The notes beneath the pieces are model-generated. The model was not told where the DNA came from. It saw nothing but the letters and a program-made list of their open reading frames with translations, and searched no databases. Below, piece after piece: positions 12,295 to 42,149 of a stretch of 42,149 nucleotides of DNA. This DNA comes from a virus. A program made the position numbers and the translations under genes. The DNA lies in the IMG/VR virus record IMGVR_UViG_3300017605_000597, positions 1-42,149 of that record; one strand, 5' to 3'. Every line of letters starts with the position of its first letter. Within the stretch, counting starts at the first letter, position 1.

Positions 12295-12538
12295 GTATAG
12301 CCCCCTCCACGGTTTGTTCAAACTCTGCCCAGGCAAATAGTAGATCATTCTTTACCACCACTTTCTTGGACACCTTACCTACTTTGTAATCCAGACCGGT
12401 TATTCGGTGCAATGAATCATGTTCAATCGTAAGGGCTATGGGGACTTTCCTTTTAGGCCCCACCGCTACCACAGTATCAATAAATGGTTCGGGTTCTTTT
12501 GGCTCTCGTTTTGGAGCTTGAGCAGTTAGCATCTTCAT
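12236..12538 (-). CDS. Hypothetical basic protein, 100 aa
   Basis: The N-terminal half is Pro/Lys/Glu-rich (APKREPKEPEPF). The second half has beta-like segments and a Lys-rich end (KGAKRISAKKAK). Its ATG overlaps the primase stop (ATGA), so it is coupled to replication genes. No family is recognised. Confidence 0.6.
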   Translation of the reverse strand: MKMLTAQAPKREPKEPEPFIDTVVAVGPKRKVPIALTIEHDSLHRITGLDYKVGKVSKKVVVKNDLLFAWAEFEQTVEGAIHDMQTLPKGAKRISAKKAK

Positions 12539-13407
12539 TTCTTCACGGGTTTAGAACTTAATAATTTAAAAAATTTTATTGGACTCGCATCCTTAAACGT
12601 CTTACAATATTCAAACTTACTACAGGCTTCCTCCTCGTTGTAATTCGGGTAAAACCTGGACACAGTTAAAAACACTTTTAATCCTTGCACGGGACCAAAG
12701 ATAAGATTAAACATACCTGCCAGATATAGCCAGTCATTATAGCTACCGGTGATGTCTACCTTACCCTCTTCAAGTAAACCAATCATCCCCATTATATCCT
12801 TCTTCAACTGGGAATCAATCTTAATCTCCACAGGCTTTATTTTAGGAGGTTTAAAAGTTAGCTTTAATACTTTAGCCTTTTCATTGATATACGTATCGGG
12901 ATCATACGAAGCAAACTTAACACGGTTGATATTCTTACAAGCCCTATCTACCACTATACCTTTCTTTGCCAAAGTTTGCTCCACCTGCATGTAGTACCAA
13001 CTATACTTTTCTTTTCCTACCGGGGCAATGCGATATACCACGCATAAACCTTTTCCACCGGTTGACGCTTGAACCATAAGTACACAAGGATCACGCGCAA
13101 GCGTCTTTCTAGCATGAACCATATCCGTACCGCTTTTATGATCTATATCCACATACAATAGTCCTGATGGTTTAATACACGAGTATAGACCACGGTCCAT
13201 AAATATACCAGCGGGTAACACACATTCCAGATATAGTTTCTTACCAAGCCCTTTACGAACAGATAGCACGTTTACTTTATGCTTCGGATCGATGGACCAC
13301 TGTAAGAAATCAAGGTTGCCTAATCCCTGATTTGATTTGCCGTTTTTATAACCACTTACCAAGTATCGCATAATGTCGTAAAGTTTATATCTAATGTCGT
13401 GGACCAT
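12535..13407 (-). CDS. BT4734/VirE N-terminal-type primase
   Basis: The 290 residues match the BT4734-like (VirE N-terminal) fold related to archaeo-eukaryotic primases. The metal-binding pair is in LLYVDIDHK (Asp87 and Asp89). A STGGKGL motif is at about 115-121, and NINRVKFASYDPDTYIN follows, with the His/Arg and Asp contacts usual for the family. It would make primers for the phage polymerase. Its start codon lies inside one arm of an inverted repeat, and the helicase gene lies just upstream. Confidence 0.75.
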   Translation of the reverse strand: MVHDIRYKLYDIMRYLVSGYKNGKSNQGLGNLDFLQWSIDPKHKVNVLSVRKGLGKKLYLECVLPAGIFMDRGLYSCIKPSGLLYVDIDHKSGTDMVHARKTLARDPCVLMVQASTGGKGLCVVYRIAPVGKEKYSWYYMQVEQTLAKKGIVVDRACKNINRVKFASYDPDTYINEKAKVLKLTFKPPKIKPVEIKIDSQLKKDIMGMIGLLEEGKVDITGSYNDWLYLAGMFNLIFGPVQGLKVFLTVSRFYPNYNEEEACSKFEYCKTFKDASPIKFFKLLSSKPVKK

Positions 13408-13519
13408 CTAGACACCCTGGACCATCTATTTCTATATGTAGAGTGTATATGTAAAAAAGGCTTATACGGGAGAGAGTTTGAAACGCCATTTAGATGGTCC
13501 ATCCGGTCTTAATGGTCCA
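13400..13519. repeat. 29-bp inverted repeat with internal direct repeats
   Basis: The 11-mer TGGACCATCTA occurs at 13400-13410 and 13418-13428. Its complement is exact at 13491-13501 and 9 of 11 match at 13509-13519. Both pairs have an 18-bp period, so 13400-13428 and 13491-13519 form 29-bp arms matching at 23 positions, with 62 bp between. The arms overlap the primase start and the helicase stop. Confidence 0.85.
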
Positions 13520-15014
13520 GGATAGTGTACACTCTAAGCTTACCATTTTTGGTCATTTTTCGCTTCAAAGTATATTTTATCTGATTGGTATCCAGCCACT
13601 TACGTAAGGCTTCGCCCACCGAGATATTGATACTTTTCACCTCTGAATTTCGTAAAGTTTCGTCCTCAGGCAAATCCACATAAGCTTCCTGGTAAGCCTC
13701 TGCAAGTTCCGACACGACAATCTCTTTGGGCATTTTCGGGGTGGTATAGTCCACTATGAACTGCCCGAGGAGGCCATGACGGATCAAATAGGACTGCGTG
13801 GTTATGGCTTTAAAGTCTCTTTGTGGTTCAGACATTCCAAGATATACTTTGATATACTCAATCATAGTACAGTAAAATAAATTATACTCTTTGGTATCCC
13901 ACTCGGTATAAAACTCACAACCATGCACTTTAACTATGGGCATATCAACCTTCAAATCTCGATAGTAACCATTGATTAATATAGGTAGCTGCCTACGTCT
14001 GTTAGAACTATCCGAGGCGTCAAAGATTATATTAGAAGTAATTACAATCTTTGGTGTATCCACCATAGCTATTTTTACCTCTGTACCGTACTTCTTATCA
14101 CTCGTGAAAGGACCTTGAGACTTTACAAACAGAGCATCAAAAAGGCTTTGGTTATTTGGATCGGATACGCATACTAGTTGAGTCTCACTGGTTACAGATC
14201 CAAAGAATTTATCATTATCATCCTTAGCTTTCCAGCGCTTACCGTCCAGTATGGTGGTGCTACGTATCTTGGCAACACCTCGTACCAATATATCTTTACC
14301 CGTGCCCCCCTACTGTCCTTTAACATTCGTTTCATCATATAGCAGAATCACACGTGCTTTAGCTTCCTGATGAAAATTGTGGGCCATATACCCTATAGCG
14401 TATATAAGTTCTTTCTCTCGCTTGGCGTTCTTACCCGATATGTTTTTTATAAATAGACTGTACTGTGATTTACCTTTCACTTTTAGATTTAACTCATGGT
14501 CTATCATTCGGGACTTCCAAACACACCGGCCTTTAAGTGTACTATAGGGCAGTAGCTTTATATCCTTAGCAGTAATCTGTACATACCCATTGGTGAAGGC
14601 TACATACATTGTAGTCTTTGTGTCCTTTAGTATTTCGGCCTCATGCTCCGGAAGCTTTTGTATAATATGAGACTTTGTAAAGTTTAATCCTCGACCATAC
14701 TTAGCCCATGCATTCAGGAATGAACGTGGGGGTAGTACTATAGGATTATCCCCTACATGTGTTTCATAGGGTTCAAGCGCTTTGGTTTTCTCATTTATAA
14801 TATAGTGTATAGTCTCCGGGTCAATCACATCAATAATGTTATCGATCACTCGCACCACGGAACCAGCACGTCTATAGATACCCAGACTCACCAGCTCTTC
14901 CAATAGCAGTGTGTCATCTACTTCGGGCTTGCCCTTGTGTATAGTAAATATATAGTAATGTTCCTCTTTCTTGGTTAGGTATTTACTTATAGTTGCCTTG
15001 TATGATACTTCCAT
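13509..15014 (-). CDS. SF3-type phage helicase (DUF5906-like) with an in-frame TAG codon
   Basis: One frame of 502 codons is interrupted only by TAG at 14310-14312, codon 235. Before it stands YAIGYMAHNFHQEAKARVIL. Right after it come GGTGKD (Walker A), then AKIRSTTILDGKRW and the sensor-like PKIVITSNI. Relatives read continuously through this point as an acidic residue plus GGTGK. Without readthrough, the first product (234 residues) lacks the ATPase core, and a TTG-started second product (259 residues from 14288) lacks Walker A. It is either a suppressed gene, a recent nonsense variant or a sequence error. It lies between a DUF7448-like gene and the primase, where a replicative helicase is expected. 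Confidence 0.75.
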
Positions 15015-15017
15015 AGA

Positions 15018-15374
15018 TTATAGTTTACAAAAGTCCACACGTTCAGAATAGTAGCCGTTAGATGTACCAAAGAATCTTATAGTCACGTACCCTTTAATAG
15101 TAGCTAACTTATAGAAGGTCCAAGTATAACTATCATTACTATCCTCAAGAGGAGGCTCATCCACATTGCTAATTTCTTCAGCCATAAGTATCTCATGACC
15201 TATTAAATCATGTATATGCCCTTCTACACTTTCAATAAATACAGATTCGCAACAATTTTGTGAATGGTATAGTTTATACTTCTCACCATTCAGGATAGTA
15301 AAAATTACTTCATCCTCGGTTGCGATACAATCCTTTAGGACTTTACCTTGCAGCTCTTCAAATTTATTATACAT
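15018..15374 (-). CDS. DUF7448-like phage protein, 118 aa
   Basis: The pattern YHSQNCCESVFIESV followed by an acidic middle and SYTWTFYKLATIKGYVTIRFFG with NGYYSE near the end is that of a small phage family, DUF7448, of unknown function. The ATG overlaps the end of the PIF1-like helicase gene by 8 bases. It probably belongs to the same transcript as the replication genes. Confidence 0.7.
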   Translation of the reverse strand: MYNKFEELQGKVLKDCIATEDEVIFTILNGEKYKLYHSQNCCESVFIESVEGHIHDLIGHEILMAEEISNVDEPPLEDSNDSYTWTFYKLATIKGYVTIRFFGTSNGYYSERVDFCKL

Positions 15375-16551
15375 AGTCTTTTACTGATTTATCAAATTTA
15401 AAATCCATCATGGTTAAGTTACGTTCCAGGGATAACCCTTTGATAGATGTTAACCGGCTAAGAGCCACGTAAGCGAGACCGTGCATACCACCGAAACCAT
15501 CAGGAATGATGTGAGCCTTGTTAAGAGTTTGCCCTTGCGATTTGTGCACGGTGGACGCATAGCCTAGTTTAAATGGGAACTGAGTGAAGGAACCTACTAC
15601 GGTGTAGTCAATACCGGTTTGCAATATGCGATTAATTTTCAGAGTATCCGCCATTGGATTATCCTCTAATTGGTTTAAATACAGTTCTCTTCTTTCCGGT
15701 GTAAGATCACAGGCCTCCTCCTTTAACCAGGTATAGGGAGTAACACGGTGATGTACCTCACCAATTTTTATTTCCACTTCCTTGCGTTTTATATCCGCTT
15801 TGTGTATAATAGCACGCGTACCATTCTGCCAACGCTCATCGCGATCGTTATTAAGCATAATGATTTGAGCACCTTCTTTAAAGTTCAGATTAACCGGAGC
15901 ACGTAGTTCTGATTCTTTCATATTACCTTTTAATACACCTACACTTTGTATGTTTTCAGAAGATAACTTCTTTAATGCGAGGGCATTCATGTGATCTACA
16001 GTAGCATTTGAGAAGGCAAGTATAGTTATATCCTCATCCTGGCAAGTAGCATTCTCATTGATCCACATAATATCTTCACGCTTGATTACACCTTGACGTA
16101 TACGGTTTAATATTTCAGCAAACGTTAAGTCTTCAGCTTGTCTATAGTTTTTGGTTAGACGTTCGATAGCGGTTGGTTCTATAGCTTTAAAGAAGTAGTC
16201 TGCTTTGACAGGTTGCAACTGGGCAAGATCGCCAAAGGCTACTACTTCCGGATGCACTCTGAGAAGGTCAAAAGCTTTTTGAATAGCAACTACCAAGTCT
16301 GCACTCATCATGGAAGCTTCGTCAATATATACCACCTCACAATTACGTAAAGGGGACCGGTATATACTATTGCGAACGTGACCATTAATGTCAAGCTTAA
16401 AAGCATTATGTATGGTTGAACCTCCCACATTGATTGCGGCTATACCTGTAGGGGCACATACTATATATGGTCTGGTTTCACTAGCAAGTTTCTGGTTGAG
16501 AAGAAAGGACTTACCCGTCCCTGCTCCTCCTGTGATAAATGTAAAGTTCAT
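15367..16551 (-). CDS. PIF1/Dda-like SF1B DNA helicase
   Basis: The 394 residues carry Walker A GGAGTGKS (8-15), PTGIAAINVGG, the Walker B VYIDEASMM, GDLAQLQPV, and the C-terminal motif VHKSQGQT with YVALSR. These are the ordered motifs of the PIF1/RecD2/Dda group, 5'-3' DNA helicases. In phages such helicases start forks and remodel recombination intermediates. It works with the polymerase and the SF3 helicase encoded nearby. The length is short, without extra domains. Confidence 0.88.
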   Translation of the reverse strand: MNFTFITGGAGTGKSFLLNQKLASETRPYIVCAPTGIAAINVGGSTIHNAFKLDINGHVRNSIYRSPLRNCEVVYIDEASMMSADLVVAIQKAFDLLRVHPEVVAFGDLAQLQPVKADYFFKAIEPTAIERLTKNYRQAEDLTFAEILNRIRQGVIKREDIMWINENATCQDEDITILAFSNATVDHMNALALKKLSSENIQSVGVLKGNMKESELRAPVNLNFKEGAQIIMLNNDRDERWQNGTRAIIHKADIKRKEVEIKIGEVHHRVTPYTWLKEEACDLTPERRELYLNQLEDNPMADTLKINRILQTGIDYTVVGSFTQFPFKLGYASTVHKSQGQTLNKAHIIPDGFGGMHGLAYVALSRLTSIKGLSLERNLTMMDFKFDKSVKDYV

Positions 16552-20143: not shown

Positions 20144-20800
20144 ATGCCAAGACAATTAAAAGCCTCTGCAAGCAACATCACGCCTGCCCCTGCCGGAATC
20201 CACAACGCGAGAATTTTTCGCATTGCTGATCTGGGAACACAAACCATTCAATTCAAAGGAAAGCCACCAAAGCAAATTCCTCAGATTCGCATCTGGGCTG
20301 AACTGGTAGACACTGCACATGCGTTTGATCCTGAAAAACCAAAGGACAAAAAACCCTTTTCGGTTATGATGGATTTAACATTCACCCTTACCGGTGACTC
20401 CAAACTCAAAAACATTATACAGAGTATCAACAACATTAAGGTAAAGCCGGGTGATAGTGTTGATGTATATAGCAAGCTTTTAAACAAGCCTTGCCAGGTA
20501 CAAGTCGTGCATTCCGAGCCTAACGCAGAGGGTAAAGTATTTCCGAATATTAAAGAGATATTTGCACCAAACCCTAAAGTGAAAGTAAAGGAGTTATTCA
20601 ACGAAACCGTGACGTTTGATCTTGCCGACTTCGACAAAGATGTATTCCTTGCTTTGCCTCAAAAGACTCAGGAGAAAATCAAACTCTCCCCGGAGTTTCA
20701 AAATGATATACTGTTAAGTGGTTCCCTTGCAAGTGATAGTGCTGCTGAGCAATCCGCTAGCGCAAGACGCACCAAAGGTAAACCTAAGAAAGGAAAGTAG
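20144..20800 (+). CDS. Probable single-stranded DNA-binding protein
   Basis: The 218-residue protein has a beta-rich core starting AGIHNARIFRIADLGTQT with FKGKPPKQIPQIRIWAELVD (an OB-like pattern), then FSVMMDLTFTLTGDSKLKN, an acidic region and a Ser/Ala-rich, Lys-rich C-terminus. It resembles phage proteins annotated as ssDNA-binding replication factors, but the C-terminus is basic, not the acidic tip usual for SSB. It is the first rightward early gene, facing the polymerase operon. Function is an inference from pattern and position. Confidence 0.5.
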   Translation: MPRQLKASASNITPAPAGIHNARIFRIADLGTQTIQFKGKPPKQIPQIRIWAELVDTAHAFDPEKPKDKKPFSVMMDLTFTLTGDSKLKNIIQSINNIKVKPGDSVDVYSKLLNKPCQVQVVHSEPNAEGKVFPNIKEIFAPNPKVKVKELFNETVTFDLADFDKDVFLALPQKTQEKIKLSPEFQNDILLSGSLASDSAAEQSASARRTKGKPKKGK

Positions 20801-20845
20801 GTAGTGGTTGACGTATAGGCTCCACGTATAACGGGCCTGCTTTAT

Positions 20846-20992
20846 GATCAGGTGGCGGAATTGGTAAACGCGCCCTAGCTAGGTACAGCGTACAACTACG
20901 GGTAGTAGTGTATAGGCCTAAGAAAAGCCTACGGGTAAATATGGTTCGACTCCATCCCGGCTGTTATGTAGGTTCGAATCCTTCCCTGATCA
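20846..20992 (+). tRNA. Oversized tRNA-like element (Leu-like ends)
   Basis: A perfect 7-bp acceptor stem (GATCAGG 20846-20852, CCTGATC 20985-20991, A after it) and a D-arm GGCGGAATTGGTAAACGC almost identical to bacterial tRNA-Leu D-arms mark the ends, and a T-arm with TTCGAAT is at 20968-20984. The span of 147 is 60 longer than a class II tRNA. The middle holds hairpins at 20895-20909 and 20913-20931 and a second T-arm-like hairpin at 20941-20955. No normal 5-bp anticodon stem with 7-base loop is visible, so identity is unknown. Confidence 0.45.
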
Positions 20993-21068
20993 CGCATTTT
21001 GCCGGTTACACAGCATGCCCGTTCAGGTTACATAATAGTATGGTACGTGGATAGAAAACCGGTTGGTA

Positions 21069-21137
21069 AAGGGTGTCAACCTAGGAGACACATGGTACAG
21101 CTAACAAGCGAGTGAGGTTCGAATCCTCACACCCTTT
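21069..21137 (+). tRNA. Short tRNA-like element with aberrant middle
   Basis: An acceptor-like AAGGGTG (21069-21075) pairs with CACCCTT (21130-21136), and a perfect T-arm TGAGG-TTCGAAT-CCTCA lies at 21113-21129. The 37 bases between do not give a normal D-arm plus anticodon arm. A competing hairpin at 21073-21091 has a 5-bp stem and a 9-base loop centred on CTA. It is either a degenerate tRNA or a different RNA. It shares CCTAG...GGTACAGC with the larger element upstream. Confidence 0.35.
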
Positions 21138-21355
21138 CTGTTTCGTTGGAGCCCACCAACATAATCCCGCAAGTCCTACCGGTGGCACGCGTACCGGATA
21201 TTTTAACTACCGGCTGAGCACAGGCAGTGACTTCACTATTTGCAATGACTCTCCTAGCGCATACAGTAATGTAGGCTCGTTATTGGGGACTAGAACTGGT
21301 CACAGTACTGTCTCTCAACCGGTAATATAAACGCAGTAGCCAGACGGGCACTGTG
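21138..21355. other. Non-coding stretch without recognised gene
   Basis: No convincing coding frame lies here. A 72-codon frame from 21112 to 21330 overlaps the tRNA-like element and looks accidental. CCGG-containing words recur (TACCGG three times). The stretch joins the tRNA-like RNAs to the hairpin before the next gene and may be part of one structured RNA. Confidence 0.4.
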
Positions 21356-21394
21356 CCCCCGTAGTCCAACACCTTTTCATAATCCCTACGGGGG
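21344..21394 (+). promoter_or_regulatory. Two competing hairpins before the 87-aa gene (attenuator-like)
   Basis: CCCCCGTAG (21356-21364) pairs perfectly with CTACGGGGG (21386-21394), a 9-bp stem followed by ATATTTTAAAA. A second hairpin at 21344-21362 (ACGGGCA with TGCCC...GT) uses the same C-run, so the two exclude each other. This is the layout of a terminator and antiterminator, 26 bases before the ATG at 21420. Confidence 0.5.
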
Positions 21395-21419
21395 ATATTT
21401 TAAAACTCCAAATATTTTT

Positions 21420-21683
21420 ATGAAAGATATAAGCACAGAAGAGTTACGAAGGTTATTAAATAACGCTGTCGCAAAGTACTCTATAAATGATAGTTCACTG
21501 GCTTCTGCTTTTAAAAGTGGGGGTGAGTATATAATAAATCAAATACCTAATCAGGATGTAAGTCGTGAGGAGTTGATGCGAGAAATAGAGGTGTTAGCAC
21601 AAGTGGCAAACATTAGATATTTAGGTAACTATTATAGAGAGACTATATTTGAGCGCATTAATAAATTGATTAGTAAGCTATGA
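21420..21683 (+). CDS. Hypothetical helical protein, 87 aa
   Basis: The protein is mainly helical and acidic (STEELRRLLNNAVAKYS at the start). The stop overlaps the exonuclease start (ATGA), so the two are coupled. No family is recognised. Confidence 0.6.
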   Translation: MKDISTEELRRLLNNAVAKYSINDSSLASAFKSGGEYIINQIPNQDVSREELMREIEVLAQVANIRYLGNYYRETIFERINKLISKL

Positions 21684-23182: not shown

Positions 23183-23509
23183 ATGACCTTATACTGTCTA
23201 ATTGATCCTTTAACATTAAGTGTTATGTATGTAGGCAAGACCGGGAACCCTGGTAGGCGCTTGCGACATCACGCTTCCTTAGCTGTTAACAAGAGGTATA
23301 AAAGTACCAAAGGCGATTGGATAAGGTATCTGAGGGAGTTCCACGATCTAAAGCCCATCATGCAGATACTTACTGAATGCATCGATGTGGTATCCCATTT
23401 ATACGAACACTTTTACTTTAAGCTGTTTGGTGGGCATACTATGCTTACTAACAGTGCAACTATATGTAAAGAAACCTACCAGTATGATCTCTTTGCAACA
23501 ACTATCTGA
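23183..23509 (+). CDS. GIY-YIG nuclease-like protein
   Basis: The start YCLIDPLTLSVMYVGKTGNPGRRLRHHASL has the paired GIY and YIG equivalents, the catalytic Arg after GNPGRR and a His. A later HLYEHFYFKLFG offers the metal-binding Glu. The size (108 aa) suggests a stand-alone nuclease domain, which could be a homing nuclease or a DNA repair or host-degrading enzyme. Downstream the frame overlaps the VRR-type nuclease start. Confidence 0.75.
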   Translation: MTLYCLIDPLTLSVMYVGKTGNPGRRLRHHASLAVNKRYKSTKGDWIRYLREFHDLKPIMQILTECIDVVSHLYEHFYFKLFGGHTMLTNSATICKETYQYDLFATTI

Positions 23510-33974: not shown

Positions 33975-34181
33975 TTACCACTTGCGTAATGGACACTCTT
34001 CATCTACTAGGCGGGTTTTAGAGATAAGTAAGCATCCACACTCATTGCAACGAAAATTTTTACGCTCCGGGCATACCTGGCAGATACGCAAACGCGATCG
34101 GGATAGTACCCGGTTATGCCCACGAATTACCAGCCATAGACCCGTTAAAAGCTTAAGGGCAGATTGAATAAATTTTCGCAT
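33975..34181 (-). CDS. Zinc-ribbon protein, 68 aa (DUF6171-like)
   Basis: ICQVCPERKNF with CNECGCLL and KTRLVDEECPLRKW gives four or more cysteines in the order of a small zinc-ribbon group seen in phages. The N-terminal half is hydrophobic and basic. It is the last gene of the sugar cassette, before the portal, and may pair with its glycosyltransferases or act alone. Confidence 0.6.
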   Translation of the reverse strand: MRKFIQSALKLLTGLWLVIRGHNRVLSRSRLRICQVCPERKNFRCNECGCLLISKTRLVDEECPLRKW

Positions 34182-34930
34182 TTGGTTAATGTGCGATTAT
34201 AGAATTTACAAAAATATCCCTCTTCAGCATTTGCCCAATCCTCCCGAATAGTGGAGACTTCAAGATTTTCCCGGGCAGAGGAATTACGTATTTTTATTTC
34301 CAGGTCCTTACGGACATAGGAGTAGTGGTGCATTATAATGTACTTCTCAAAGGCTACCCCACTGTTTATATTAAATTGCCTGGTAGGATCAATGCGTATT
34401 TGCCCATCTACCCAAGCATAGGGGTAACGCCTATTCATTTCATACTTTAACGTTGGTGTGATTCGATGAATAAAAGGCACCAACGTTACATCCTCACCTA
34501 CGGTTAAATCCGGACGTTTAAAATACACCTGTGACTTTACAACTATACCATTCAAAGATACATCCCTATGCATTAACATTTTTGCATACCCTATATCCTC
34601 AGGTCTATAAAACTCATCCGAGTCCATAGTAATAATGTGCGTACAACCTGCATGCCTAGCCATGGCAAGACCCAAATTGCGTTTACTACGCTCGGACTCC
34701 ATACCAGACATCGTACTAAAGCCATTAACATGATCATACTTATAGCGCTTTATTTTATCACTCTCAAATGAGCACCAATCAGGAAGTTCAAATTTCTTAA
34801 ACTCCCCAAAATTTGAATAATCAGAATAGACTACTATAATTAAATCCACATAGTCTATAATACTTTTTATAGAGCAGGGCAATATCTCTAAACTATCCCC
34901 CCAAACATTATACACGGCTGCTAGTTTCAT
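34145..34930 (-). CDS. Glycosyltransferase-like protein, 261 aa
   Basis: The GT-A like start MKLAAVYNVWGDSLEILP and TMDSDEFYRPEDI, which holds a DxD-type metal site at about residues 97-103, indicate a nucleotide-sugar-dependent transferase. The C-terminal half has IMHHYSYVRKD and RTLTK. Acceptor and sugar are unknown. A 7-bp hairpin separates it from the next upstream gene. Confidence 0.6.
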   Translation of the reverse strand: MKLAAVYNVWGDSLEILPCSIKSIIDYVDLIIVVYSDYSNFGEFKKFELPDWCSFESDKIKRYKYDHVNGFSTMSGMESERSKRNLGLAMARHAGCTHIITMDSDEFYRPEDIGYAKMLMHRDVSLNGIVVKSQVYFKRPDLTVGEDVTLVPFIHRITPTLKYEMNRRYPYAWVDGQIRIDPTRQFNINSGVAFEKYIIMHHYSYVRKDLEIKIRNSSARENLEVSTIREDWANAEEGYFCKFYNRTLTKCENLFNLPLSF

Positions 34931-34975
34931 AGGTAAAATATAGTTAATTTTAAAGTGTTCTGGTAATTTTCATGT

Positions 34976-35003
34976 AGTAGGGTAGTGTGCTGACTGCCCT
35001 ACT
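34976..35003. promoter_or_regulatory. Hairpin in the sugar cassette
   Basis: AGTAGGG (34976-34982) pairs with CCCTACT (34997-35003). On the plus strand TTTT follows, which makes it a terminator for antisense transcripts. On the minus strand there is no T-run, so it is not expected to end the gene transcripts. Confidence 0.5.
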
Positions 35004-35005
35004 TT

Positions 35006-35698
35006 TTACCCTTCCGAAAATAAACAAACTGAATCTGCTATAGGCATTACTCTACGATGCTCTTCATACGCAAAAAATGTCTCCTGACCTTTAAGTATTG
35101 TAATACCATGTGTATGTAGTAAAGCGCTCATTACACTTTGATCATGTCTATGCCCTTTGCATCGCATATCTTCACTTTCCGTAAGGTCATCATTGTTCCA
35201 CTCACCTGGATATAAGTTATCAGATAATAATAAGTAGTCCGTAAATAGAGATAAGTTTTCTTCCTTACCTACTCCTGTGAAATTAAACCCCATACAACAA
35301 GCCATGATCATAGGTATACTAAAAGCATAATCACGATGTATACCAAAATGATCTAGTGCTTTATCGTTAGTATAATCGCCTATAGAATACCCTATGTTAT
35401 CAAAAAAAGCATTCCCTTCAATAAGCAAATACTGAATAAAATCATGCATAGGTTTTTTCGCATATACCACACTATCACACCATATCACGATATCATAACC
35501 ATAGTCAATAGCTTTTTGAATTGCGTAAGGTTTAAACTTATAGGGCACTTCGGAATGTGGTTCACAACCAATGTCTTTATAAGAAGTGAACCCCAGAAAG
35601 TCCCCATTAAAATTTCCCTTCAAAGATTGTTCTAAACGTTGCATACGCTTTTGATATTGCCCAACACCATCGGCAAAAGATACTACACAAGCTTTCAT
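35006..35698 (-). CDS. Probable glycosyltransferase, 230 aa
   Basis: The start MKACVVSFADGVGQYQKRMQ, then IVIWCDSVVYAKKPM with a DSV/DxD-type site, and HDQSVMSALLHTHG match transferases of the GT-A fold that act on sugar donors. Its ATG overlaps the end of the FkbM gene. Specificity is unknown. Confidence 0.55.
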   Translation of the reverse strand: MKACVVSFADGVGQYQKRMQRLEQSLKGNFNGDFLGFTSYKDIGCEPHSEVPYKFKPYAIQKAIDYGYDIVIWCDSVVYAKKPMHDFIQYLLIEGNAFFDNIGYSIGDYTNDKALDHFGIHRDYAFSIPMIMACCMGFNFTGVGKEENLSLFTDYLLLSDNLYPGEWNNDDLTESEDMRCKGHRHDQSVMSALLHTHGITILKGQETFFAYEEHRRVMPIADSVCLFSEG

Positions 35699-36327
35699 CG
35701 CGCGTAAATTAAGTTTTCCCCAGAGGTATATATTACTTTCATGCCCTGCTTTACATCAAGTATACTGTGGTACTTTGCTGCTAGCTCATTATCCCCATTC
35801 CATTCAATACATACCATAAAAGCAAAGTCAAGTGTACAATAGTCCTGCATTTGCTGAAGTATACTCCAATCCATACCCTCAGCATCTATAGATATAAAGT
35901 CATAGGCAACCTGTTGCGCGTATAACTTTTGGAAAGTTTCCCATCTTACACAATCTACGGCTATAGTCTCATAGTGCACTACGTTTTCAAAACGCTTAAC
36001 TTCCTTAGGCACAATGGTACTAACTAGATCAGTATCCCCCTTACCGAGTAAGGTACCACTTGCTTGCATACTGATCATACCATCTATATTACCTATGGCA
36101 AGCTTATAAGGTGCAACTAAGCTATTAAAATGATACAACCCACTTAACTTTTGAAAAGTTATAGGTGCCGGTTCAATACATACACCATCCCAACCACGCT
36201 CTGCAAGGGCACGTACATTTGAAAACGTTATACCATCATTCTCCCCAATGGATAGGAATGTTCCTTTAATATCACGAATACCGAAGTATTCAAGGATATA
36301 CTTTTCTTCTTCGTTTTGACTATACAT
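35695..36327 (-). CDS. FkbM-family methyltransferase
   Basis: From the ATG at 36327 (MYSQNEEEKYI) the 210 residues contain FLSIGENDGITFSNVRALAE (SAM-binding), WDGVCIEPAPITFQKL and FISIDAEGMDWSIL, the order of motifs in FkbM methyltransferases. They O-methylate sugars or lipids. The longer open frame to 36405 overlaps the upstream gene and is rejected. It would methylate a sugar of the product made by this cassette. Confidence 0.8.
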   Translation of the reverse strand: MYSQNEEEKYILEYFGIRDIKGTFLSIGENDGITFSNVRALAERGWDGVCIEPAPITFQKLSGLYHFNSLVAPYKLAIGNIDGMISMQASGTLLGKGDTDLVSTIVPKEVKRFENVVHYETIAVDCVRWETFQKLYAQQVAYDFISIDAEGMDWSILQQMQDYCTLDFAFMVCIEWNGDNELAAKYHSILDVKQGMKVIYTSGENLIYAR

Positions 36328-36880
36328 TGTAGTAGGTTGGTAATTGTTCACGGTCAATAAATCCAGCTTTTGTTTTACGCATAATCGCGGTGATGTTCCA
36401 TCCATCTGTTATGTTTCCCATAGCTGCGTTCTCATCTAAGAAGACCAGTTCGTACTCAGCTACCTTGGCAAGCTGTATATAAAACTCTGTGTCTATGTAG
36501 TTGTTGCCATGCTTAGGCCAGTTCTTAGTCTTTGGGTTTTCTCGGTATATATAGCCACCAACTTTACATAAGCGATCTATGTTGGCAAGGCATTGATAGT
36601 AATCATGGGTATGCTCACTAGTCCCAGCGTCGACCACTAAATCAAACTTCTTAACAGTCTTTAAAGGCTTGTCCAAATCCCAGGTTTTTGCATGATTTTC
36701 CCCATTAAGATCAATGCACATATACTCCTTACCCAGCTTTTCATACCACTCTGAAATATAGGGTGTATCCTGCAAGGTGAAATTATTCTGTGCCCCAAGA
36801 TCGCAAATGGAATTTATAGTTATATCCTTGCTGTTTAGTAGGGCACTTATGTGTACTATGGTGTGTCCAGTGTATCCCAT
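36320..36880 (-). CDS. SAM-dependent methyltransferase-like protein, 186 aa
   Basis: SICDLGAQNNFTLQD and YMCIDLNGENHAKTWDLDKP with DLVVDAGTSEHTHDYYQCLAN form a Rossmann-like SAM-binding arrangement. The length (186) is short. The substrate may be a sugar, given its neighbours. The stop is TAG, overlapping the FkbM start. Confidence 0.6.
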   Translation of the reverse strand: MGYTGHTIVHISALLNSKDITINSICDLGAQNNFTLQDTPYISEWYEKLGKEYMCIDLNGENHAKTWDLDKPLKTVKKFDLVVDAGTSEHTHDYYQCLANIDRLCKVGGYIYRENPKTKNWPKHGNNYIDTEFYIQLAKVAEYELVFLDENAAMGNITDGWNITAIMRKTKAGFIDREQLPTYYNV

Positions 36881-36885
36881 TTTTT

Positions 36886-37443
36886 TTATTTTGTTTTATA
36901 GTCGTAATGATAGATTTGTTTTTCTATATGATAGGATGTTTTTAGCAGTCCAAGGTCTCTGATTTTAGTGGCCCATCTATAATCCTCCCCCATGTATATA
37001 TCCTCGAATGGTACATGCTCTACAAGCTCGCGTTTAAAAGCACATAAATGGTTAGGGTAACGATAATATTTACCCCCACGCTCCTCATAGTTCTCACCTA
37101 AACGTATTTCAAAATCCACACGATGAGCACCGTTAGTAGTCATGTAACCATTAAAAGTTACTACATCCACACCCTGGTTAACACCTTCCATGATACTACG
37201 TACGTAATCATGAGATATTATATCATCATCATCGACCATACAAACGTACTCTGCTTTTAGCGTACGGGCATCTCGAAGCAAAGAATTACGCTTTGTTCCC
37301 GTGGATACCTCTCTACCAGAGTCATTATAAATTATGGATATAGCTCCCTCAACTGCTAAGCACTGTTTTTGCAACTCTTGATATATGCCCTTAAACTGAT
37401 TTGCTCGTTCGGGAAGTGTAGGTATAAGTATAGCAAGCTTCAT
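36886..37443 (-). CDS. Family 2 glycosyltransferase, 185 aa
   Basis: The start MKLAILIPTLPERANQFKGI, AEYVCMVDDDDIISHDYVRS (DxD metal site) and YMGEDYRWATKIRDL are hallmarks of GT2 enzymes. It is short but complete in the catalytic part. The ATG overlaps the end of the cupin gene. Confidence 0.8.
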   Translation of the reverse strand: MKLAILIPTLPERANQFKGIYQELQKQCLAVEGAISIIYNDSGREVSTGTKRNSLLRDARTLKAEYVCMVDDDDIISHDYVRSIMEGVNQGVDVVTFNGYMTTNGAHRVDFEIRLGENYEERGGKYYRYPNHLCAFKRELVEHVPFEDIYMGEDYRWATKIRDLGLLKTSYHIEKQIYHYDYKTK

Positions 37444-37766
37444 ATTTTATAGTCGTCTGTGGGGTCGTGATCTTTAGAGGCTAAGCATAGTAATACGGAG
37501 CCTACATCTAAAATAAAAGAGTGCATCTGCATAGGCTCAATTAAAATTGAACTATTTTTAGTAATGCTGGTACTTTTACCATCTATAATCACATTTCCTC
37601 TACCTTCCAACAATAAAAATAACTCACGTTTATTCTTATGATAGTGGTTTCCTATAGATGTAACCGCTTTTACTATCACGACTTTTAACACTGCCCAGTT
37701 ACCCCCGGCACCAAGTTCATATAGTGCTCGCCTGTGATCTTCAGATACTAAATTATAATACTCCAT
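37440..37766 (-). CDS. Cupin-fold protein (possible sugar isomerase/epimerase)
   Basis: The 108-residue protein has SIGNHYHKNKRELFLLLEG and GNVIIDGKSTSITKNSSILI with PMQMHSFIL, a cupin pattern with metal-binding His/Glu. Such proteins act on nucleotide sugars (for example WxcM-type isomerases). It overlaps the dehydratase gene stop, so it probably works on the dehydratase product. Confidence 0.65.
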   Translation of the reverse strand: MEYYNLVSEDHRRALYELGAGGNWAVLKVVIVKAVTSIGNHYHKNKRELFLLLEGRGNVIIDGKSTSITKNSSILIEPMQMHSFILDVGSVLLCLASKDHDPTDDYKI

Positions 37767-38718
37767 GTTTTTCTAGTTCTGCTTCCGTCATTATAACCAC
37801 CAAGTCCTTAAATTTTACTTTGGGTTCAAAGCCCAAAACAGTCTTGCTTTTAAGAGAATCCCCTATAAGTATATCTACTTCTGCGGGACGTGTTAACGAC
37901 TTATCGTACTCTACGTAATTTTCCCAATCCTTTATACCTGCAACTTCAAAAGCAAGCTGTACCCATTCTTTAACAGAATGTGTTTCTCCGGTTGCTATCA
38001 CGAAATCATCAGGCGTAGGGTGCTGCATAATATTCCATATCCACTCACTATACTCTTTGGCATATCCCCAGTCTCGTTTCGCATCAAGGTTACCCAGTAC
38101 CAATTTTTTACGCTTACCTGCTTTTATTTCCGCAACACCTATACATACTTTTCTGCTCAGGAACTCTTCACCTCTGCGAGGGCTTTCGTGATTAAATAAA
38201 AAACCACAGTATATCTTCATACCATAACTTTCACGATAGGTACGAGCCATATAGTAAGATGCTGCTTTGGAAACTCCGTATGGGGATCGTGGATAAAAAG
38301 GAGTATTTTCTGTCTGTGGAATTTGTTGAACCTTACCAAACATTTCAGAAGAGCATGCTTGGTATATCTTAGCGTCTAGCTTTAAAGACATGACAGACTC
38401 TATAATTCTAAGCAAACCCAGGCAGTTTACATCCATGGTCATAGAAGGTACATCGTAGGACCAACGTACTTGACTCATACCCGCAAGGTTATATATTTCC
38501 TCAGGCATTACAGCTTCTAAAGCTTTTTGTATAGACCCGGAGTCTGTCATATCCCCAGGATGCAAGTGAATTTTACTTGCCAGGTGCTTTAAATTATCCA
38601 TCAAAGGATTAGACGTACGCCTAATTAACCCGTGAACTTCATAACCTTTCGATAGTAGTAACTCAGTAAGATAGCTACCATCTTGACCATTGATACCCGT
38701 TATAAATGCCTTCTTCAT
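37753..38718 (-). CDS. gmd: GDP-mannose 4,6-dehydratase
   Basis: The 321-residue short-chain dehydrogenase has the NAD(P)-binding TGINGQDGSYL (7-17), the catalytic SSEMFG, Tyr147 and Lys151 in YGVSK, and the subfamily motifs FNHESPRRGEEFLSRKV, GNLDAKRDWGYAKEY and RPAEVD. It makes GDP-4-keto-6-deoxymannose, the precursor of fucose, rhamnose-like and perosamine-like sugars. A fucose synthase or a reductase is not found here, so a host enzyme or the cupin must finish the sugar. Confidence 0.92.
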   Translation of the reverse strand: MKKAFITGINGQDGSYLTELLLSKGYEVHGLIRRTSNPLMDNLKHLASKIHLHPGDMTDSGSIQKALEAVMPEEIYNLAGMSQVRWSYDVPSMTMDVNCLGLLRIIESVMSLKLDAKIYQACSSEMFGKVQQIPQTENTPFYPRSPYGVSKAASYYMARTYRESYGMKIYCGFLFNHESPRRGEEFLSRKVCIGVAEIKAGKRKKLVLGNLDAKRDWGYAKEYSEWIWNIMQHPTPDDFVIATGETHSVKEWVQLAFEVAGIKDWENYVEYDKSLTRPAEVDILIGDSLKSKTVLGFEPKVKFKDLVVIMTEAELEKHGVL

Positions 38719-39428
38719 AGTATTGGAAATCCTTTTGCTCTGCGTTCTCTAAATATAGTTTCCCCCTGTGCCCAGTTAACCTCACTCGCACGATAGGTTT
38801 CATCATTTTCGCACTTACCTATTGAGTGATGCAAGTGAGGAAATTTAAGCTCCGGGGCAAGTCTTAGGGCACCCAACTTTTTACACACTTCATATAAATC
38901 ACAATCTACAAACATAGACTTGTATGCAGGATGCCAGAAGTAACCAAGCTGATTATATAGTGCACGGTTCATGATGGGTATAGTAAGTACAGGCACTTCA
39001 AACTTTTGTAAACAGTCATCTACTTTAAGTAATACAGGCCTATACATTTCAGGACCAACGCAAATGTGCTGTATAAAATCATAACTTGTAAAATAAGTAC
39101 TTATTAACCAATCCCAATAACTAGGACAATCAAAATCATCAGATAAGTAAATAAATATGTCTGACTCCTTATCTCTTTGCGCTGCAATATTAGTTGCCTC
39201 CACTACAGACGTATTTCGATTTATATGTATACATAAATCCACTTCCTCAAACTTATATGCCTTGTATAAATTTACATAGAGACTTAATTGGGGATCATCA
39301 CTATCCAAACTTAGATTAACTATAATTTTTATACCCGAATTTATATTAACTTTCTTAATCCAGTTCATAACCGTGCCAAAACTCTTTTGCGCACGACCTC
39401 GCGAAGGGTGTAGTAATCCAATGGTCAT
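38715..39428 (-). CDS. Glycosyltransferase family 2-like, 237 aa
   Basis: The start MTIGLLHPSRGRAQKSFGTV and DIFIYLSDDFDCPSYWDWL, with a DDxD metal site, and later KFPHLHHSIGKCEND fit a GT2-like fold. It is coupled to the dehydratase gene through an ATGA overlap. Donor and acceptor are unknown. Confidence 0.7.
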   Translation of the reverse strand: MTIGLLHPSRGRAQKSFGTVMNWIKKVNINSGIKIIVNLSLDSDDPQLSLYVNLYKAYKFEEVDLCIHINRNTSVVEATNIAAQRDKESDIFIYLSDDFDCPSYWDWLISTYFTSYDFIQHICVGPEMYRPVLLKVDDCLQKFEVPVLTIPIMNRALYNQLGYFWHPAYKSMFVDCDLYEVCKKLGALRLAPELKFPHLHHSIGKCENDETYRASEVNWAQGETIFRERRAKGFPIL

Positions 39429-40081
39429 AGTGGAGATACCTTTAAATTCTTATCATTGATCCAAATAGAAAATAATCTTTCAAGTATAAAAGGAGCTATA
39501 GGCCAATCGTTACGCCCTAACTTTTCTTTGATAACTTGCTTCTCCGCATCTGATTTAACACTTGCATAACCGGAATCCACAAAGTATACTTCCCTATCGC
39601 GTATATACTCCATAACAGGAGTAAGGGCGCTATTAACATACTCTTTATACAAATCCAAATGAGTGACAAAATGATTTTCATATATAGCGTGTTTTACCTC
39701 TTTGGGTATACAGATAAATTTTCTCAAATCGGCTATAGCATTATCCCAGGCTTTACCATGCCACTGCGAGGACATTTCTAACATCTTATGACTTGGGGAT
39801 CGTGGTGTAAGTACAATAACATCAGCGTCTGAGGCTTCCAACTTTTCAAGTGTTAATGTCTTATCAACCAATCGAAAAGCATCACCACGTTTTGCTTTCA
39901 ATCGCCAAGAACATATACCTACTTTAATGTCCCCTTGAAACATAGGTATAAAGGTGTTAATTATAGCATTTTCAAAATATGGTGTTAGACTAGTAGTTAT
40001 TAGGGGCAAAGCGAAATCATACAACTCCGTACGATGCTCTTCCTTATAGTATATCTGATATAGTTCTACTTTGCTAGCCAT
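39425..40081 (-). CDS. Hypothetical sugar-cassette protein, 218 aa
   Basis: From the ATG at 40081 (MASKVELYQIYYKEEHRTEL) the protein has TSLTPYFENAIINTFIPM and DIKVGICSWRLKAK, with DADVIVLTPRSPSH. The layout resembles uncharacterised glycosyltransferase-like proteins of polysaccharide loci. No motif secures this. It overlaps the upstream small gene. A longer open frame to 40102 is less likely. Confidence 0.5.
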   Translation of the reverse strand: MASKVELYQIYYKEEHRTELYDFALPLITTSLTPYFENAIINTFIPMFQGDIKVGICSWRLKAKRGDAFRLVDKTLTLEKLEASDADVIVLTPRSPSHKMLEMSSQWHGKAWDNAIADLRKFICIPKEVKHAIYENHFVTHLDLYKEYVNSALTPVMEYIRDREVYFVDSGYASVKSDAEKQVIKEKLGRNDWPIAPFILERLFSIWINDKNLKVSPL

Positions 40082-40245
40082 TCTTTCACCTTTGTAAAAC
40101 ACCTACCACAACCATAGTCCGTTAATCTGCCTTCAGGGTGATCCTGGTTATAAGCTTCAAAGGCCTTGATCCATAAAGGATGTTTACCGATGCGATGAAA
40201 CAACCCTGATTCTTGAAGCGCTTTATATAGTTCTTCACGGCTCAT
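40066..40245 (-). CDS. Small protein with CxxC, 59 aa
   Basis: The 59-residue frame starts MSREELYKALQESGLFHRIG, continues HPLWIKAFEAYNQD and ends with YGCGRCFTKVKEWL. The single CxxC pair suggests a metal or redox site but not a full zinc finger. It is the first gene after the terminator at 40253-40312. Earlier TTG start lies inside the hairpin and is rejected. Confidence 0.55.
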   Translation of the reverse strand: MSREELYKALQESGLFHRIGKHPLWIKAFEAYNQDHPEGRLTDYGCGRCFTKVKEWLAK

Positions 40246-40369: not shown

Positions 40370-40939
40370 TTAAATTTCCCTAGCCTGAATATAACTCAAT
40401 GTATCCTGATAGCTTGTTGCGCTCTGATTTACCCGGAAACGCAATGGTTTCGTGCGTTCTGATCCGGTAAGCGTTATGGTATCCGATGCATCAGCATCCC
40501 CGGTATTACCCGTATTCTGTACATCCGATTCCGCTTGTAAACCCTTGGAGGCACCAAGTATAAAAAATCCTTCATTGTTGTCCTGAGCAATAATAAAGAT
40601 GTCCGTACCCAAAGCAAGGCTTTGTAATACTACATCATCCTCAGTGCTATTTGCTAAAAGCTTTCCTACAAATATATGCCTGTAGGATTTATTACCCCCG
40701 GCAGCCACTACCAACTCGGAACCAAATGAATGCGAAAACTTTTGTCCATCAAACCTGCGTAACCCCTTATATATCGAAAGCGGAAGTGAAGATATATCCG
40801 CTATCTGAGATATGGAGAAACGCGTAGTAAGCTCGGACAAATAACCAACCCAAAAAGTTTGGTCGGCACCTCCCACGCGAAGTAAATCTTCGCATGAGTT
40901 GGTTATGCCTGATGTTGCTTTACACGTTTCTATCGCCAT
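40370..40939 (-). CDS. Major tail (tube)-like protein, 189 aa
   Basis: The 189-residue beta-rich protein begins MAIETCKATSGITNSCEDLL and includes GGNKSYRHIFVGKLLANSTE and GFFILGASKGLQAESD. It stands directly after the capsid gene, is the right size for a tail tube or decoration protein, and is highly represented by a good position in the operon. No clear motif allows a firm choice. Its ATG is in frame with the capsid gene, separated only by TAG and one codon. Confidence 0.5.
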   Translation of the reverse strand: MAIETCKATSGITNSCEDLLRVGGADQTFWVGYLSELTTRFSISQIADISSLPLSIYKGLRRFDGQKFSHSFGSELVVAAGGNKSYRHIFVGKLLANSTEDDVVLQSLALGTDIFIIAQDNNEGFFILGASKGLQAESDVQNTGNTGDADASDTITLTGSERTKPLRFRVNQSATSYQDTLSYIQAREI

Positions 40940-40942
40940 GGT

Positions 40943-41965
40943 CTAGTATACAATTATTGCGAGATCGCAGTGTAAGTACTGGTATCCAAATTTCATATCC
41001 CCCTCAAACTTATATCTGCGGGTTTCACGATCGTACCAACCTTCAATTTTATTCAGATCTGGGCCGTTCTCTACACCAATGATATGGTTTTCTTTGATAG
41101 TCAACATGCCAAAGTGACGGGTAGTAGAGTATAAAGGGTTAGTAGAATCTGCCAACTCTTCATCCCACACACGTACTGGTATCACAGGTATACCATTGAA
41201 AGTAACCACTTTCATACCATTTTGCAGGTTGGTAAATGCTGCTTCAGTAACGTTACCTACACCTTGCAGAGACTTCACGTAGCTATCATAGATAGAACCA
41301 GTCACCGCAAAATACTTACCTGGTTGTGCCTTCAGCAAGTTTGATGCGGAATCATACATCGCTTGAAGGATTGCCAAACCGGCACCTGCAGCAAGTGTAC
41401 CCGTACCAAGTGGTGTATATGCACGTCTCACGCAATAAGTAGAAGCCGTTCCAGATGAATCAATCAAGCGAGTAATCATACCGTTGATTGTATTCCAGTC
41501 AGCAGACCCACTATCTACGTCACCAAAGAATATACGTCTGGCTACGTCTCTACGCAATGCGTACTCAATCATTTGATTGATCACAGAAGCTACCGGAGTA
41601 CCTCCTATATCAAAGCTGCGTACACCTGTGCGTAACCATTCCTGAGCAAGGATGTTATACTGTCCAGACAATTGGTTTGTAAAATCATCCTTACAAAACC
41701 GCATGTTTACTTCAAACTCTTCAGTTTCAAGTGTCACGTTACTGATAGGTACACCATCTGTAAACGTGCGATCACAACCCGCATAAGGTTTCAAAATCTT
41801 ATTAAGGGTACCAACCACATTGTATTGCTTTTTAAAGCTAATACCTGGGTCGATTATAGCCAGGTCTGAAAGTGCAAGCACATCCAGCACAGGCTTAAAA
41901 TATATTTCCGTTGTCAATATACCATCATAGATATAGTTGAAATTCGTTGTCAAAGCTCCTGCCAT
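40943..41965 (-). CDS. Major capsid protein (HK97 fold)
   Basis: The 340 residues fit the HK97 fold: an N-terminal arm, a spine with EWLRTGVRSFDIGG, a P-domain with MIEYALRRDVARRIFFGD, and a C-terminal E-loop-like region with NGMKVVTFNGIPVIPVRVWDEEL. The gene follows the protease and scaffold by 12 bases. It builds the icosahedral shell. The stop is TAG, followed by one codon and the next ATG in the same frame. Confidence 0.88.
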   Translation of the reverse strand: MAGALTTNFNYIYDGILTTEIYFKPVLDVLALSDLAIIDPGISFKKQYNVVGTLNKILKPYAGCDRTFTDGVPISNVTLETEEFEVNMRFCKDDFTNQLSGQYNILAQEWLRTGVRSFDIGGTPVASVINQMIEYALRRDVARRIFFGDVDSGSADWNTINGMITRLIDSSGTASTYCVRRAYTPLGTGTLAAGAGLAILQAMYDSASNLLKAQPGKYFAVTGSIYDSYVKSLQGVGNVTEAAFTNLQNGMKVVTFNGIPVIPVRVWDEELADSTNPLYSTTRHFGMLTIKENHIIGVENGPDLNKIEGWYDRETRRYKFEGDMKFGYQYLHCDLAIIVY

Positions 41966-41977
41966 GAGTTTAAAAAA

Positions 41978-42149
41978 TTATTGTTTTATAAATTCCTTCA
42001 TCCAAGCCATGCCGGGTAAATCCAGCAATTCTTCCTGTGCTTCCTTATTAAACTGATCCTTGGAGTTTGGTTTACCCATATCCGGTTCTTTTTTACCACG
42101 AGGAGGTTTACCATCATCCCCGAGGGTCTGCGTACGCAAGGCTTCGAAA
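41978..42149 (-). CDS. ClpP-like prohead protease, 3' part (continues at base 1)
   Basis: This is the end of the gene that starts at 1085. After base 42008 the remaining 141 bases repeat the window start. The last residues are AWMKEFIKQ before TAA (41978-41980). Confidence 0.9.
   Translation of the reverse strand, partial: FEALRTQTLGDDGKPPRGKKEPDMGKPNSKDQFNKEAQEELLDLPGMAWMKEFIKQ
42009..42149. repeat. Terminal direct repeat, right copy (assembly overlap)
   Basis: These 141 bases duplicate bases 1-141 exactly. The repeat should be removed once, giving about 42,008 bp of unique circular or permuted sequence. Confidence 0.95.

Follow-up and report, generated by a model that had tools for sequence, protein, structure and literature searches.

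How an amber codon came to stand directly in front of the P-loop of a helicase gene, and whether a full-length protein can still be made from that gene, is the question raised by a minus-strand frame of the phage DNA analysed here (the window; 42,149 nucleotides, IMG/VR record IMGVR_UViG_3300017605_000597). The gene is carried by a Bacteroidota-type tailed phage. Its frame (15014-13509) comprises 502 codons, and translation reveals a TAA at the end and a single internal stop, the TAG at 14310..14312 (codon 235), which is followed directly by the Walker A core GGTGKD (codons 236-241, 14292..14309), as the sequence-only reading had described. The upstream part starts with ATG and contains 234 codons (14313..15014, minus strand) that cover the N-terminal region up to the P-loop strand. 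The downstream part (13509..14309, minus strand; 266 codons plus TAA) carries Walker A, Walker B, sensor 1, the arginine and the C-terminal part. In the ORF list and the sequence, the earliest start codon past the TAG in this frame is a TTG (14286..14288, minus strand), which lies 21 bases past the stop and beyond the P-loop; there is no start codon between the TAG and the P-loop. Neither product would therefore contain the whole ATPase core, in agreement with the earlier claim that the split products are each incomplete.

A comparison of the two parts with phrog_28855 reveals that they belong together. The upstream part matches profile positions 417-526 (E 2.8e-9), the downstream part matches positions 537-689 (E 3.1e-11), and the joined read-through protein matches with an E value of 2.5e-29 over residues 119-395. 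Because both halves match this family in register, the locus is one gene with an internal stop and not two neighbouring genes, and a chance abutment of two unrelated ORFs is ruled out. The earlier observation that helicase sequence is conserved on either side of the stop in the same frame thus holds. A frameshift or indel at the G run is also ruled out, since the frame and the alignment are continuous.

The read-through frame is a D5-like superfamily 3 (SF3) helicase of phrog_28855, of the DUF5906 type. No trusted Pfam match was obtained with the window helicase protein: DUF5906 (PF19263) is matched by 47 of the 54 aligned members but not by the window protein itself, and matches to DNase_II and Mucin_bdg fall below the cutoff and were ignored. 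The structure predicted from the read-through protein aligned with 53 relatives has a mean pLDDT of 76 and a pTM of 0.71. Among solved structures, the best match to this predicted fold is the SaPI5 primase-helicase (Z 19.0, 307 residues, rmsd 3.5), and vaccinia D5 is also matched (Z 18.3, 320 residues, rmsd 4.3). Both structural alignments span approximately residues 19-406, across the stop, and the read-through protein is accordingly predicted to adopt the SF3 AAA+ fold. In the alignment of 148 relatives, the Walker A residues G239 and K240, the Walker B acid D285, the sensor-1 residue N328 and the conserved R341 are retained. Two motif positions are unusual. The last residue of Walker A, at position 241, is D only in the window (G in 123 relatives, S in 21 and T in 3), and the first acid of the Walker B region (LVCVSD, codons 280-285, 14160..14177, minus strand) is replaced by S at position 284 (D in 121 relatives, N in 17, Q in 5 and E in 2), with D285 kept. 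The joined frame therefore shares its fold and motifs with the D5-like SF3 primase-helicases (phrog_28855, DUF5906; the fold of SaPI5 and poxvirus D5), from which it differs in the separate downstream primase gene, in a Walker A that ends with D, in a Walker B that starts with S, and in a frame that is interrupted by the TAG at codon 235.

The frame of most relatives spans 700 to 900 residues and includes a primase domain ahead of the helicase. The region 12535-15014 of the window instead encodes primase and helicase as two genes in reverse order, whereas most relatives have them fused as primase-helicase. The separate gene (12535..13407, minus strand) encodes a BT4734-like (VirE_N-type) primase domain, which matches PF08800 (E 5.2e-16) and profile positions 57-177 of phrog_28855. 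Additionally, a second helicase gene, Pif1/Dda-like and of superfamily 1, is located at 15367..16551 on the minus strand (phrog_325, E 1.2e-67; PIF1, E 5.7e-14).

The odd Walker residues could suggest that the helicase is decaying. Positions with a conservation of 97% or more were counted by leave-one-out, and the window helicase keeps 6 of 8 of these near-invariant positions upstream of the stop and 21 of 35 downstream. Intact relatives of similar distance keep 4 of 12 and 25 of 40 (L003), 6 of 10 and 27 of 38 (L085), and 6 of 11 and 30 of 39 (L004), respectively. Decay was rejected, since intact relatives at a comparable distance show similar overall retention. The codon log-odds are 0.240 upstream of the stop and 0.238 downstream, inside the range of the other genes, and by these measures the sequence past the stop looks like coding sequence that is still under selection. 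Normal codon usage and ordinary conservation past the stop indicate that the change is recent, that the codon is read through, or that the consensus is in error. Efficient readthrough would also produce the strong conservation past the stop, which is a point against a nonsense codon.

Helicase relatives were drawn from IMG/VR, GTDB genomes, phage records and plasmids, and 148 loci with a match were obtained. None of these 148 relatives, all distant (approximately 32% identity or less), has a stop inside the match, and the alignment is continuous across codon 235, without an indel. In this alignment, a comparison that the sequence-only reading had proposed, codon 235 is occupied by E (90), N (32), Y (14), S (4), Q (3), F (2), H (1) or V (1), with one gap. 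Codons for Glu, Tyr, Gln and Ser are one substitution away from TAG, so that at this variable position a single base change separates the TAG from an ordinary sense codon. The nearest relatives have Tyr at this position but, at only approximately 32% identity, are too distant to identify the ancestral codon. In collections that may lack the records closest to the window, no closer helicase relative was found with the full protein against viral contigs and genome contigs, and no closer relative of the region was found with the neighbouring genes (Dda-like helicase, primase and polymerase) as queries. A DNA pattern for EGGTGKD gave three matches, none of which is a helicase, and a peptide pattern around the stop site gave no matches. 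The phages with the closest terminase (L005, 79%) lack this helicase. The phage is a mosaic: its structural genes are approximately 52-93% identical to those of IMG/VR record 3300003320_000650, and the replication genes that flank the helicase yielded no close relatives.

These data bear on two ways in which the stop might be functional. If readthrough were programmed, the stop would act as a regulatory switch that yields a short N-terminal protein and a minor share of full-length helicase. The sequence-only reading had compared TAG GGG GGC with known readthrough contexts, and some viral readthrough sites do consist of UAG followed by G (MLV gag-pol). Beyond the G after the TAG, the comparison is unsupported: the G run of this G-rich stretch is largely dictated by the Gly-Gly codons of the P-loop, and RNA folding around the stop, in a pseudoknot-free model, is no better than that of shuffled sequence (z -0.90 and -0.72). 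No readthrough element was found, and the stop is not conserved in any of the 148 relatives, although these are at approximately 32% identity or less. Programmed readthrough is therefore considered highly improbable. Alternatively, the two halves might be made separately, the second by re-initiation, and then assemble. The TTG at 14288, 21 bases past the stop and preceded by G-rich sequence, offers a possible start for the second half, but its product would lack the Walker A lysine, and the absence of any start codon between the stop and the P-loop also argues against this arrangement. Separate genes split at this point, which the earlier reading had named as evidence against itself, occur in 0 of the 148 relatives, and a split gene is extremely unlikely.

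The remaining explanations depend on how TAG is read in this genome. The contig carries an exact 141-bp direct terminal repeat (1-141 and 42009-42149); with these identical ends it closes on itself, and a complete genome of approximately 42.0 kb is probable. An ORF cut by the left end of the contig terminates beyond the junction, where it matches the protein of L005. The exact closure over 141 bp suggests a short-read assembly with k=141. Such assemblies occasionally, though not often, contain an error at a single consensus base. The 48 other genes terminate with TAA (20), TGA (17) or TAG (11), and the coding density under table 11 is 93.5%. For comparison, phages predicted to use TAG as a sense codon have approximately 67-69% coding under the ordinary code (PMC11210395). 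The major capsid gene is among those that end with TAG (40943..40945, minus strand), and three of its orthologues end with TAA at the same residue. Among the orthologues shared with the nearest relatives, no other interrupted gene was found, and an internal TAG occurs in one gene only.

Whole-genome recoding of TAG (code 15) was rejected on the basis of stop usage, coding density and orthologue ends: internal TAG codons in many genes, a low density under table 11 and disuse of TAG as a terminator are all absent here. The earlier claims that TAG is a normal stop in other genes, the capsid gene included, and that the genome as a whole is not recoded are both confirmed. TAG-recoded phages (code 15; crAss-like, Lak) likewise have in-frame TAG in a conserved gene of a Bacteroidota-type phage. 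They differ from the present case, in which one gene is affected, TAG terminates 11 genes at the above density, and a Sup-CTA tRNA was not found; such a tRNA is present in about half of the phages predicted to have TAG reassigned (PMC11210395).

Two further regions of the genome were noted. The minus-strand region 34145-40102 contains a GDP-mannose 4,6-dehydratase gene (37753-38718) and, as judged by eye, several glycosyltransferase- and methyltransferase-like ORFs, suggesting a sugar-modification module. On the plus strand, 23183-23509 is a small ORF for a GIY-YIG-type nuclease, possibly a homing endonuclease.

The main rival to a nonsense codon is useful readthrough in the natural host, where an amber suppressor tRNA or leaky near-cognate decoding would provide enough full-length helicase. 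The two halves of the helicase are both conserved and equally coding, codon 235 tolerates several residues, and small amounts of a replicative enzyme may suffice. Phages with reassigned codons but without a detectable suppressor tRNA may use that of the host (PMC7886860), which is also in favour of this explanation. However, 11 genes end with TAG, and one of them is the capsid gene, which shares its frame with the next gene (40370-41965, minus strand) and is separated from it by one stop and one codon. Efficient amber suppression would thus fuse the capsid to a 189-residue protein. The stop between these two genes is TAG here and TAA in the nearest relative, and the in-frame layout is also present in a second relative. 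The restriction of internal TAG to a single gene and the failure to find a suppressor in the phage genome further argue against such readthrough in the host, which is unlikely.

A suppressor might also be encoded by the phage. Standard tRNA searches of the genome revealed no canonical tRNA, and an intron-bearing CUA tRNA was rejected because the only model that ARAGORN produced with introns allowed, one for Gly(tcc), was improbable. A permissive Rfam search scored 20846-20992, which includes a long insert, as tRNA-like (37.7 bits); this stretch lies in a non-coding gap of 619 nt (20800-21420, plus strand). Closer reading of this gap reveals three T-arms within 20940-21129 (at 20940, 20968 and 21113) and two perfect 7-bp acceptor stems. 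The gap also contains a 5' half that resembles tRNA-Leu and, near 21355-21400, a terminator-like hairpin. These elements would be consistent with a divergent amber suppressor within 20846-21136, the helicase TAG being an early step of recoding, and phages that have newly acquired a TAG suppressor and carry their first TAG codons in conserved genes have been described (PMC7886860). Nevertheless, no anticodon arm with U33 and CUA lies beside the T-arms, nor one of any kind except the T-arms themselves. The sole CTA-bearing hairpin, at 21073, has the CTA in a nine-base loop, AACCTAGGA, which reads better as a D-loop than as an anticodon loop, and approximately 0.35 CTA hairpins are estimated to occur by chance in the tRNA-like stretch. 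With TAG still the terminator of 11 genes, a phage-encoded suppressor is very unlikely, and the gap contains either tRNA remnants or an unusual tRNA-like RNA. The corresponding view, in which the phage is just beginning an amber code change and a divergent suppressor RNA from 20846-21136 decodes the lone TAG, so that helicase synthesis would depend on that RNA, is a decidedly remote prospect.

The probable explanation is an isolated nonsense codon within a D5-like SF3 helicase gene that is otherwise intact, either a real allele or an error of the assembled consensus. This reading is the simplest and fits everything: the stop, the intact frame on either side, the stop-free relatives and the standard code elsewhere. 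A single base change at the variable position beside the P-loop would have created the TAG. Under the ordinary code, translation would stop at codon 235 and yield a 234-residue fragment without the ATPase core; we infer both that ribosomes stop there and that the phage loses this helicase. With a real allele, the phage may depend on intact gene copies elsewhere in the population or on a different helicase, such as the adjoining Pif1/Dda-like enzyme, or may simply carry a dead copy. One difficulty is that, if the helicase is essential, such an allele should not dominate a lytic population, yet it was assembled; no integrase that would hint at a dormant prophage was noticed in the part of the ORFs searched for one. 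Of the options that the sequence-only reading had listed (readthrough or suppression, a nonsense variant, and a sequencing error), the nonsense variant and the consensus error stand as the simplest, whereas programmed readthrough is without a positive sign. The observations require no new kind of system. Amber mutants of phage replication genes likewise have a single TAG in an otherwise intact gene of essential type, although the known mutants were selected in the laboratory on suppressor hosts, whereas the present phage is uncultured.

The finding serves mainly as a warning. In a phage gene assembled from a metagenome, a single in-frame stop does not count as evidence for recoding unless TAG no longer serves as a terminator, further genes are interrupted as well, or the stop is shared by relatives. 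Gene callers will report two ORFs for this helicase, an N-terminal one and a later one started at TTG, and will miss the P-loop. If the full-length protein is found, codon 235 would provide a naturally occurring test of amber suppression by hosts among the Bacteroidota.
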